From: Photobacterium aquimaris
Lineage (GTDB): Bacteria; Pseudomonadota; Gammaproteobacteria; Enterobacterales; Vibrionaceae
Assembly: GCF_002954455.1 (NCBI RefSeq)
Contig: NZ_MSCC01000003.1
Coordinates: forward strand, 153,900 to 217,899
Reading direction: 5' to 3'
DNA: 64,000 nt
Below, piece after piece: positions 13,017-21,940 of this stretch (position 1 is the stretch's first letter; each line of letters opens with the position of its first letter). Position numbers and translations under genes: made by a program. The notes beneath the pieces are model-generated. The model was not told the origin of the DNA. It saw only the letters and a program-made list of their open reading frames with translations, and did not search any database.

Positions 13017-13348
13017 TTATTGACGTTTTAATGCAAAATGAACAAATTGCTGGCCGCGATAAGTCATGGTGCCAATATCTCCGGGATTTAAAGCGTGGTA
13101 ATAATGAATACCAATCATAAATTCTCGTTTAGGCCCACCTGTTAGTGGCTGAACATAAAACCAATATTCCTCATCTTCTTCCCCTGGCTGTGCACCAATA
13201 ATACGGTTAGTTTGTTTATCGAGAATTTGTACTTCAATTTTTTTTCTGGTGCATCAAGACCTAAGATATGGCGGCGATAGTTATAACTAAAATACGCTAA
13301 TGCCAATAAAAATAGCAGGCACAGTACGACAATAATCCATATCGGCAT
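13017..13348 (-). pseudogene. DUF2500 (YhhM-like) gene interrupted by a -1 frameshift at an A8 tract
   Basis: From the ATG at 13348 (AGGAG site seven bases upstream) the first frame reads MPIWIIVVLCLLFLLALAYFSYNYRR, a membrane anchor, then passes the A8 tract (plus-strand T8 at 13238-13245) and ends at 13142 after nonsense-like sequence. One extra A restores a 110-residue protein that continues IEVQILDKQ and ends YHALNPGDIGTMTYRGQQFVHF, clearly the DUF2500 domain (E. coli YhhM: YHALTVGDKGTLSYKGTRFVSF). In E. coli yhhM follows rsmD-yhhL, whose relatives lie 1.8 kb away on the same strand here. The shift may be a sequencing error, a real mutation, or a slippage site. Confidence 0.82.
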
Positions 13349-13534
13349 TCCCAAACTCCTTGGTGGTTAATAAGCTATATTAGATAAATACCGCGCTATT
13401 ATTCACAGCAAATTTCTACATCCCTAGCTATGGATAATAAAATCGTGATCTAAATACAATTATTTTACTAAAACACTATATTGGATTGATAGCTTAGGTA
13501 AGGTAATGATTATTTAATATCGAGGGAGGTGATG

Positions 13535-13897
13535 ATGGATATTGAGCAAGTGATTGATAAATCTCGTCGGCTAGAAGATTTACTGCGCCAACATTATCAT
13601 GCTAAAGGTTCTGATTTAACGCAATTAGTTCACAGTTGTGATAATCGCTTTCCTGATGATATTGTTAATAAACTGAATCAAATTACTGCTATACGCCAGA
13701 AATTAATGATGGATGATACTTCTCTTTCTGCAACAAATGATTATCAGCGTTTTATCGATTTATGTTCGGAGTGTGAGCAGGAGTTAATGCCACGCAGTAG
13801 TCGTTTGGTATGGGGAGTGGCAGTGGTATTGCTTGGTGGTATTACATTAGCTGCATTAGGGTTCTATTTTTATCATTGGCAACACATCACATTATAG
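13535..13897 (+). CDS. Hypothetical protein with a C-terminal membrane anchor
   Basis: The 120-residue product is mostly charged and helical (MDIEQVIDKSRRLEDLLRQHYHAKG) and ends with one hydrophobic segment (LVWGVAVVLLGGITLAALGFYFY) plus a short polar tail, so it is probably a tail-anchored inner-membrane protein facing the cytoplasm. I chose the second ATG at 13535, five bases after GGGAGG; the preceding GTG and ATG are too close to that site. I do not recognise the family. A strong terminator follows. Confidence 0.7.
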   Translation: MDIEQVIDKSRRLEDLLRQHYHAKGSDLTQLVHSCDNRFPDDIVNKLNQITAIRQKLMMDDTSLSATNDYQRFIDLCSECEQELMPRSSRLVWGVAVVLLGGITLAALGFYFYHWQHITL

Positions 13898-13923: not shown

Positions 13924-13954
13924 AAAAAATGGCGCCATTAGGCGCTATTTTTTT
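13924..13954. terminator. Bidirectional terminator
   Basis: ATGGCGCC and GGCGCTAT pair around ATTA, with an A run before and a T run after. It serves the 120-residue gene on the plus strand and the 26-codon gene on the minus strand. Confidence 0.85.
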
Positions 13955-13970
13955 GTTTCTTAAATATGGT

Positions 13971-14051
13971 TTAGTAGATTATTGGTAGTGTCATTAAACC
14001 AACAACTACAGCAATCATGACAAGGCCTTGTTTTTGTGAGTGTGTAAGCAT
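13971..14051 (-). CDS. 26-residue membrane mini-protein
   Basis: ATG at 14051 is preceded by AGGAA at nine-base spacing and opens a frame for 26 residues: a polar start (MLTHSQKQG), one hydrophobic helix (LVMIAVVVGLMTLPIIY) and a stop. A promoter-like TTGCCA-N17-TTATCT lies about 45 bases upstream and a bidirectional terminator follows 17 bases after the stop, so the whole transcription unit is visible. I recognise no family. Small single-helix proteins often regulate membrane complexes, but the function here is unknown. Confidence 0.6.
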   Translation of the reverse strand: MLTHSQKQGLVMIAVVVGLMTLPIIY

Positions 14052-14093
14052 ATTTTTGCATTCCTGATGGTGGGTTTTTTATCTTGACAATTA

Positions 14094-14122
14094 AGATAAC
14101 ATTGTTTTGCTGGCGTTGGCAA
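14094..14122 (-). promoter_or_regulatory. Putative sigma-70 promoter of the mini-protein gene
   Basis: On the minus strand TTGCCA and TTATCT are separated by exactly 17 bases, leaving a leader of about 35 bases before the 26-codon frame. Confidence 0.5.
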
Positions 14123-14164
14123 GTTAAGTGGCTATATATCTAGTTTAAAAACATTTTACTTTGT

Positions 14165-14640
14165 CAATAAAAGCTGTTTATCATCATTAAAACAATGTTT
14201 TTATTATTGTTGGATTAATGTTACTTTATTTTTTTGTCGTTATTTTGTTTTTTAACTTGTTGTTTTATTTTGTTGTTTTTTATTTATCTGCTTTTTTAAT
14301 ATCTGCTTTTTTATTTTTTATTATGTTTATTGTTTAAAACGACCAAAAATAGCTAATGTTTGATGGTATGGCTATTTAGTGATTGTTTTTCTTGTTTTAT
14401 ATTTATGGTGGTTATGTTTTTTGTATATAAAATAGTTAAAGTGCTTGTTTTTCATTATGTTGGCGATTTTGTTAGTGTTTTTTTGTGGGGTAATTGATTA
14501 TTGGGTGTTGGTAGGTGTCTTTTGTGTTTGTTTTTTTATTTTTAATGTGTAAGTGTTTGTTTTTTAATTATTTGATTGTTGTGTTTTCCCGTTTTTATAG
14601 GGTTGTTTTTGGGCTGTGTTGTTGATGGTTGTTATTGTTA
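14165..14640. other. T/G-rich, C-poor noncoding tract
   Basis: About 480 bases are dominated by T and G on the plus strand. Row by row, C makes up only 0 to 5 of each 60 bases from 14221 to 14640, and the row at 14521 has none. No reading frame is supportable on either strand. A 13-base unit ATCTGCTTTTTTA occurs twice back to back near 14286-14312. Purpose unknown. Confidence 0.75.
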
Positions 14641-14762
14641 TTGGGCGTTTTCTTACTATGTGAGACTTAACCGCTTACAGTTTCGGTTTAATATTAAAGA
14701 TAGAGGGTTGAATGATGACTGCTATCTTTAATTAATGATAATTCACGTAATGAGGAAGGTGG

Positions 14763-21100: not shown

Positions 21101-21940
21101 ATGCATCGCTTAGCTGAATTTTATAACCCTCGTCATGCGCAAGCATTTATTGATTATATGGCTTCACGGGGTATTGAACTGACTTTAGCGCCAGAGCCTG
21201 AGGGTAAATTTGCGTTATGGTTGCAAGATAGCCAATACTTGATTGAAGCTGAAGCTGAATTGAATGCGTTTATTGCTGATCCTAATAATAGCAAATACCA
21301 AGAAGCATCATGGCAAGTAGCAGAAAGTCGTACCGCAAAATTTGATTACTCGAGCCCAAGCTTGATCTCTATGGTCAAAGCACAAGCAGGACCATTTACA
21401 CTGACGGTGATGGTGGTATCGCTAGTACTTTATGGTCTGTGGTTACTTGGATTTGAATCGCTACTGTTTGATTGGTTTCATTTTCCATTTATGAATGGTG
21501 ATCAGTGGCAGTTATGGCGCTACTTCAGCCATGCATTACTGCATTTTTCCGCTTTGCATGTGATTTTTAACTGTCTATGGTGGTGGCTATTAGGTGGACA
21601 AATTGAGCGTCATAGTGGTTCAGCTAAACTAGTACAACTGTTTCTTATCTCATCATTGATTTCTGGTTTTGGTCAATTTTGGCTGGATGGGCCTAATTTT
21701 GGCGGTTTATCTGGCGTCGTTTATGCTTTATTAGGTTATATTTGGTGGATGGGCTGGCTAGCGCCACAGCGTGGGTTAGTGATTGCTCGCTCTTACGTGG
21801 TGTTTATGTTGGTGTGGCTTATCATTGGTTTTGCAGAGCCTGCTGGGATTGCGATTGCGAATATGGCTCATCTAATGGGACTGTTAACCGGTTGTGCGAT
21901 TGCTTTAATCGATGCCAAATTTATCAAGCCTAAAGCATAG
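21101..21940 (+). CDS. glpG: Rhomboid intramembrane serine protease GlpG
   Basis: The 279-residue protein has a cytoplasmic N-domain (NPRHAQAFIDYMASRGIELTL) and six membrane helices. The rhomboid elements are HALLHFSALHVIFNCLWWWLLGGQIE, the catalytic Ser in GGLSGVVYALLGY, and the catalytic His in NMAHLMGLLTG. I chose the ATG at 21101, which matches E. coli GlpG, rather than the GTG nine bases earlier. A terminator after it separates glpEG from glpR. Confidence 0.94.
   Translation: MHRLAEFYNPRHAQAFIDYMASRGIELTLAPEPEGKFALWLQDSQYLIEAEAELNAFIADPNNSKYQEASWQVAESRTAKFDYSSPSLISMVKAQAGPFTLTVMVVSLVLYGLWLLGFESLLFDWFHFPFMNGDQWQLWRYFSHALLHFSALHVIFNCLWWWLLGGQIERHSGSAKLVQLFLISSLISGFGQFWLDGPNFGGLSGVVYALLGYIWWMGWLAPQRGLVIARSYVVFMLVWLIIGFAEPAGIAIANMAHLMGLLTGCAIALIDAKFIKPKA

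Follow-up and report, generated by a model that had tools for sequence, protein, structure and literature searches.

We have found a 26-codon gene in a 64,000-nucleotide stretch of the Photobacterium aquimaris genome (assembly GCF_002954455.1, contig NZ_MSCC01000003.1, positions 153,900 to 217,899). It is conserved in most sampled genomes of the Vibrionaceae, with little alteration in many species of Vibrio and Photobacterium, and is under purifying selection at the protein level. The whole stretch is referred to here as the window, the gene as the mini-gene and its predicted product, MLTHSQKQGLVMIAVVVGLMTLPIIY, as the mini-protein. The mini-gene lies on the minus strand (13971..14051, stop codon included), with its ATG at 14051 and its TAA at 13973-13971. 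On balance, we favour the reading that it is a genuine protein gene whose 26-residue product crosses the inner membrane once and packs against a larger membrane complex. We infer translation of the frame; the genome comparison itself shows conservation of the frame and selection of the coding type. A protein of this size with a ratio of nonsynonymous to synonymous differences (pN/pS) near 0.1 across most of a family should have a definite job. The mini-gene seems to have been missed by standard annotation, and reading raw sequence can recover genes that fall under annotation length limits.

A conserved transcription unit under protein-level selection

A first-pass annotation of the sequence had described a complete transcription unit here without stating its strand. 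All of its parts are present on the minus strand and are conserved in relatives. The -35 element TTGCCA (14117..14122; TTGATC or TTGCCT in most relatives) is separated by an 18-base spacer from an extended -10 element, TG-T-TATCTT (14093..14101, hexamer 14098-14093), which reads TG-C-TATTCT in most Vibrio. The promoter had first been written as TTGCCA-N17-TTATCT; this is one and the same site with its register shifted by one base, and it is the extended -10 with the 18-base spacer that relatives keep. Judged by position, the likely transcription start is at 14085, the A of a conserved CA that lies 7-8 bases past the -10. The Shine-Dalgarno sequence AGGAA was found as described (14061..14065; AGGAG in most relatives), as was an intrinsic terminator-like inverted repeat (13924..13953) that could serve both strands, ending the mini-gene as well as the convergent gene on its far side. 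The repeat begins 17 bases past the mini-gene stop, beyond the interval 13971-14122 assigned to the unit at first.

Conservation of these signals was counted in 130 distinct loci of 179, the other 49 being duplicate regions or having cut flanks. TTG, spacer and extended -10 occur together in 119 of the 130 loci, 118 of which have the 18-base spacer, and the TTG of the -35 is invariant across 20 chosen aligned loci. A Shine-Dalgarno core (AGGA, GGAG or GAGG, at most 20 bases from the start) is kept in 121 loci, and a stem followed by a T-run in 128, both misses running into N. In an alignment of 20 loci, 98.5% of the 200 cells of the terminator stem are paired and 24 cells are changed on both sides (0/500 shuffles as high), the stem tested having been drawn from the same 20 sequences; the count of further pair types was not above shuffles (462/500 as high).

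By itself the promoter does not exceed chance expectation: a scan of the region gave 12 promoter-like sites against 11.0 +- 3.1 in shuffles, and 3 terminator-like sites against 1.8 +- 1.4. The unit as a whole is above chance because frame, promoter, ribosome-binding site and terminator are all conserved in relatives. In a DNA comparison with 100 loci of relatives, a set in which some genomes are represented more than once, the transcription unit was matched in 100, the convergent gene in 18, the divergent DUF2007 gene in 15 and the T/G-rich tract upstream of the promoter in 14. The corrected promoter pattern recovered the mini-gene's own promoter in each of six Vibrio genomes (0 to 2 mismatches); with that promoter included, it gave 25 sites in total versus 24 for a reversed control pattern, and hence no sign of a shared promoter element.

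The first-pass annotation had proposed that the gene be judged by conservation of its frame in relatives and by a bias of substitutions to third codon positions. At an expectation value (E) of at most 1e-3, protein searches matched the frame in 244 of the 296 Vibrionaceae genomes, which belong to 9 of the 13 genera sampled. An earlier protein search at E<=10 had matched 35 of 60 genomes, namely the source genome and 34 of the 35 others of its genus. Relaxing the family search to E<=10 gave 249 genomes, the five added matches being weak (G160, G163, G193, G277 and G290); a profile built from 21 variants recovered G163, G277 and G290, three beyond the 244, and did not recover the mini-gene in G160 or G193. 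Among the 47 unmatched family genomes, the profile gave one weak match (G209, E 0.039), to a 56-residue frame on another contig. The mini-gene is single copy in the sense of one clear copy per genome. A second match was seen in about sixteen genomes, and the three of these that were individually listed have E of 0.7-1.

Outside the family, no match was found at E<=10 in 24 genomes of other families of the order, and an order-wide profile search of 394 genomes gave no convincing match; its best E outside the family, 0.00167, is at chance level given the number of genomes searched. A named scan kept 80 loci of 160 confirmed stretches, and because all 80 are labelled Photobacterium or Vibrio, we call this a Vibrionaceae family; Photobacterium phosphoreum and P. 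kishitanii are among the carriers so named. No match to the mini-protein was found among 72,556 plasmid and 50,697 phage records, and a plasmid or phage origin of the mini-gene was ruled out on that count.

Diverged forms were also sought by eye, up to 350 bases past the convergent gene, in loci that lack a clear mini-gene. Twenty-seven loci were taken, one of which (L208) was not placeable and one of which (L192) offered 109 bases only; no frame resembling the mini-protein was seen in the 26 placed loci, and 9 of them hold small hydrophobic frames. Some Vibrio genomes (L180-L186) carry divergent versions, for example MTTSQRQGLVLIAVMVGLMTLPMIS (L180), MFSSSQKQGLVIIALILGFVTALPMIY (L183) and MTQSQVKGLVMIVLTIGFMSIPALV (L185), with hairpin-like sequence past the frame.

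Substitutions follow a coding pattern, falling mostly at third positions. Of the loci, 119 rows had a 26-codon frame that begins with a standard start codon, and these held 98 distinct frames. Among 49 independent closest pairs of them, 188, 49 and 5 differences lie at codon positions 3, 1 and 2 (pN/pS 0.094). A second test paired loci by the divergence of the neighbouring gene; 136 distinct rows were obtained from 181 loci in which both genes are present, sequences whose neighbours were less than 2% apart were left unpaired, and rows with a mis-set start were retained. Its 68 independent pairs show 254, 67 and 9 changes at positions 3, 1 and 2 (pN/pS 0.099, bootstrap 95% 0.073-0.125). Both of the checks proposed at first pass thus came out on the side of a protein gene.

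This pattern bears directly on whether the locus yields only a regulatory small RNA (sRNA) in which the frame is incidental. The unit is short and discrete and has a strong terminator, an sRNA has been listed between VC0142 and VC0143 at what is very probably the equivalent Vibrio cholerae position (PMC3136459, in its Table 1), and the synonymous sites of the frame are under tighter constraint than those of the convergent neighbour (pS 0.199 vs 0.519; ratio 0.385, 95% 0.31-0.47). The predicted transcript has modest fold stability (z -1.78), its firmest helix being the terminator. Against an RNA-only function stand the codon-position counts and pN/pS of the 68-pair test and the conserved Shine-Dalgarno sequence and ATG, and no Rfam model matched in the window at the gathering score. 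The synonymous constraint is also weaker than that of rpsL, whose synonymous divergence over the same 15 genome pairs (30 genomes) is 0.120 vs 0.381 for the mini-gene; because rpsL is lower still, the codon bias of a well-expressed gene is enough to account for the low mini-gene pS. A non-coding sRNA as sole function is close to refuted by the coding-type substitutions, and we regard it as highly improbable.

A dual-function RNA, which would encode the protein and also act as a base-pairing or protein-binding regulator, deserves more weight, though we still consider it unlikely. The neighbour-relative pS ratio and the recovery of an sRNA in V. cholerae speak for it, as do fixed codons within the frame (CTT at Leu10 in 101 of 136 rows, TAC at Tyr26 in 112). 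The stronger constraint on rpsL in the same genome pairs speaks against it, as does the 5' untranslated region, which is little conserved outside promoter and Shine-Dalgarno sequence.

A regulatory leader peptide controlling a downstream gene would likewise be a short frame with its own Shine-Dalgarno sequence near a strong hairpin. Here the unit ends in that hairpin, a terminator whose stem covaries, and the amino-acid sequence is conserved throughout, with no runs of one regulatory residue. A leader would have no adjacent gene in its own direction to control, because the gene that follows points towards it. This arrangement and the covarying terminator rule the candidate out, and we attach almost no probability to it.

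A predicted single-pass membrane protein

The mini-protein begins with a polar N-terminus of pattern M-x-[TS]-x-SQ[KR]Q, continues as one hydrophobic helix (about residues 9-26) and ends in a conserved LP-x-x-Y. An alignment of 21 chosen variants has fourteen invariant columns (S5, Q6, K7, Q8, G9, L10, M12, I13, A14, G18, M20, L22, P23 and Y26); the 136-row set has rare exceptions at several of these, and one group of rows has Arg for Lys at position 7. The best 17-residue hydropathy window scores 2.60 in the window protein and 2.29 in a Vibrio variant, and one membrane-spanning helix is predicted. A small-xxx-small face favours helix packing in general; the conservation of such a face here, A14-xxx-G18, does not prove complex binding.

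Family libraries did not recognise the product. No family was found at E<=1 in NCBIfam (window protein) or Pfam (window protein and Vibrio variant), PADLOC gave no match to either of these two proteins, and PHROGs gave one PHROG at E 0.11 (window protein). A PDB sequence search returned Photosystem I subunit VIII (6vpv chain I; E 0.52, 14 residues), a chance-level resemblance between hydrophobic helices and not a homologue by this evidence. A second search returned none, and a solved complex containing the mini-protein was set aside as a candidate. The letters of the peptide did not occur in a full-text literature search, and the listings and opening abstract lines of the literature on Vibrio small proteins hold nothing apparently about it. 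The first-pass description of an "unrecognised" membrane mini-protein is therefore apt for the protein libraries and full text; it does not extend to the locus, as the probably equivalent V. cholerae position has been published as an sRNA.

AcrZ, CydX, MgtS and KdpF belong to a known class of small proteins in Enterobacteria, each with one transmembrane helix and an accessory or regulatory role. The mini-protein resembles this class in having fewer than 50 residues, one hydrophobic helix, a short polar N-terminus and a chromosomal gene that is strongly conserved in its family. With 26 amino acids and pN/pS of 0.094 and 0.099, it is a predicted product of under about 50 residues under protein-level selection. 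It differs from the class in having no sequence family match and in being encoded by a lone gene, with one neighbour convergent to it and the other divergent.

In length and hydrophobicity, the mini-protein also falls in the range of type I toxins such as IbsC, ShoB and TisB, hydrophobic peptides that depolarise the membrane when over-produced. Type I toxins are usually, although not universally, patchy, mobile or multicopy. The mini-gene is none of these, though some lineages of the family lack it: unlike those toxins, it has one clear copy in each carrier genome, within fixed chromosomal surroundings, is confined to one family and went unmatched in the plasmid and phage records. Type I toxins are also paired with an antisense RNA antitoxin over the toxin mRNA, and the general promoter scan of the region stood at chance level. 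Its conserved polar N-terminal motif also exceeds what insertion needs. We judge a toxin-like role improbable. The toxin, leader and RNA-only accounts all fit the evidence worse than a single-pass membrane protein.

As a single-pass membrane protein, the mini-protein could work as follows. The predicted 26 residues would be made from a unit that has a sigma-70 promoter, a ribosome-binding site and a terminator to itself. The short polar N-terminus would probably stay in the cytoplasm, by the positive-inside rule, while the one hydrophobic helix would insert in the inner membrane and cross it once. The helix may then pack laterally on a larger inner-membrane complex through its A14-xxx-G18 face, and such packing could stabilise the complex or tune its activity, a mode of action known from other small membrane proteins. 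Because the polar N-terminus, the helix face and the C-terminal LP-x-x-Y are all conserved, we favour specific contacts over bulk membrane effects. Regulation of a membrane complex, to which the first-pass annotation had pointed, is likewise something we infer. Expression would be under the control of a regulated promoter, which in V. cholerae is probably tied to iron, carbon and virulence regulators.

The probable corresponding locus of Vibrio cholerae

We take VC0142 to be the convergent gene, with VC numbering running towards ftsY. The intergenic region between VC0142 and VC0143 would then correspond to the mini-gene and its upstream tract.

Table 1 of PMC3136459 lists sRNA reads at 134505-134394 between these two genes, and a region pulled down with ToxT lies nearby (134659-134803). 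The start exceeds the end, which places the sRNA on the minus strand if so meant. According to PMC11288032, an sRNA has been described from the same intergenic region, together with sites for Fur and ToxT; the sRNA rises in an ihfA deletion (log2 3.94), and VC0143 rises too (5.22). Table 1 of PMC6050953 gives a CRP peak at 134815, assigned to VC0142a<>VC0143 and marked as regulated ("Yes"); the passages of that paper around the table do not state a product for the tag VC0142a. The excerpts of three further papers (PMC7600106, PMC5816637, PMC9201469) mention only VC0143, which they link to iron or give as repressed in biofilm.

The geometry of the two loci agrees in strand, in the gene on each side, in the divergence of VC0143 and in similar length. 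On the basis of gene order and strand, the V. cholerae sRNA locus is very probably the orthologue of the mini-gene. The two differ in that the V. cholerae locus is described as an sRNA, with no protein product mentioned in the passages available, and no mention of a peptide at VC0142/VC0143 was found in the literature open to search. In V. cholerae, the mini-gene transcript has probably been filed as an sRNA instead of a protein gene. If the loci are identical, the "sRNA" data for ToxT, Fur, IHF and CRP could be re-read as regulation of a protein. The 16-mer of the N16961 CRP site was found in 0 of 244 mini-gene loci, and L064 does not contain it even with 3 mismatches allowed; it occurs in 18 of 329 family genomes, where adjacency to the mini-gene is not established.

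A broader proposal is possible, and we put it forward tentatively, as somewhat less probable than not: that a conserved Vibrionaceae-wide microprotein controls a core inner-membrane complex, that the V. cholerae "sRNA" under ToxT, Fur, IHF and CRP is its transcript, and that the conserved, strand-asymmetric T/G-rich tract beside its promoter, which is strongest where the mini-gene occurs, may be its regulatory region.

Several observations weigh against the membrane-protein reading and its extension to V. cholerae. The mini-gene is absent from the sampled genomes of genera g26, g27, g30 and g33 and from some of g36, as well as from G013, an incomplete genome of the window's own genus; several lineages do without it, so it is not needed everywhere. 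At about 18 residues, the hydrophobic segment is short. No guilt by association points to a partner, since the convergent gene, always adjacent where the mini-gene occurs, persists without it. What links the mini-gene to V. cholerae is the order and strand of the genes, not sequence, and the span of reads reported there in Table 1 of PMC3136459 is 112 nucleotides, compared with the roughly 160-nucleotide transcript predicted here.

Neighbouring genes and the upstream tract

The mini-gene stands alone, with the convergent gene on one side and the DUF2007 gene, which is divergent from it, on the other. The convergent gene (13529..13897, plus strand) encodes a 122-amino-acid protein with one C-terminal hydrophobic segment and is the neighbour of the mini-gene in all 20 context loci; rsmD is also present in 18 of these. 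Its Vibrio orthologue has a weak DUF4145 match (E 0.04) that is below the cut-off. The string RNKxxH, which we take to be HEPN-like by resemblance, occurs in 11 of 13 aligned orthologues, and the window copy has RQKLMMD instead. Among 32 searched genomes, drawn from the 49 family genomes with no mini-gene or a doubtful match only, 27 contain the convergent gene without a clear mini-gene. Because it is present without the mini-gene, the convergent gene is a syntenic neighbour and not a proven partner, and an obligate partnership between the two was ruled out.

Between the mini-gene promoter and the DUF2007 gene lies a tract without a recognised gene (14130..14660) that is T/G-rich on the plus strand. 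Its composition was measured over 450 bases (100 to 550 upstream of the start), on the strand that points away from the mini-gene, in 100 loci including the window; one of 101 candidates, L153, was left out because it has fewer than 700 bases upstream. T+G ranged from 0.576 to 0.742 (mean 0.666) in 100/100 loci. In the window, the tract reaches a T+G of 0.784, the most extreme of 8,495 N-free 450-base windows (mean 0.516, standard deviation 0.041) across about 450 kilobases of the same genome, 313 windows with N having been dropped. One other place only, near 21401, departs from 0.5 by at least 0.15 in T+G. The tract diverges faster than the flanking genes while its composition is kept.

Twenty-six loci that have the convergent gene and no clear mini-gene show T+G of 0.50-0.65 at 150 to 600 bases past that gene, many of them with long open frames. 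As the two ranges overlap, the link between tract and mini-gene is a tendency and not a rule. The tract may be a regulatory region of the mini-gene. At its edge, a block at 14147-14203 (TAAAAACATTTTA...CAATAAAAGC...TTAAAACAATGTTTT) is conserved above the rest among four Photobacterium sequences and is possibly a binding site or a second promoter.

On the far side of the convergent gene, a DUF2500-like gene (13040-13354) appears shortened, with a frame of 70 amino acids vs 109 in the L064 orthologue. Relatives match it over part of its length, and a T-run lies near the end of the similarity; the shortening could be a frameshift or a sequencing error.
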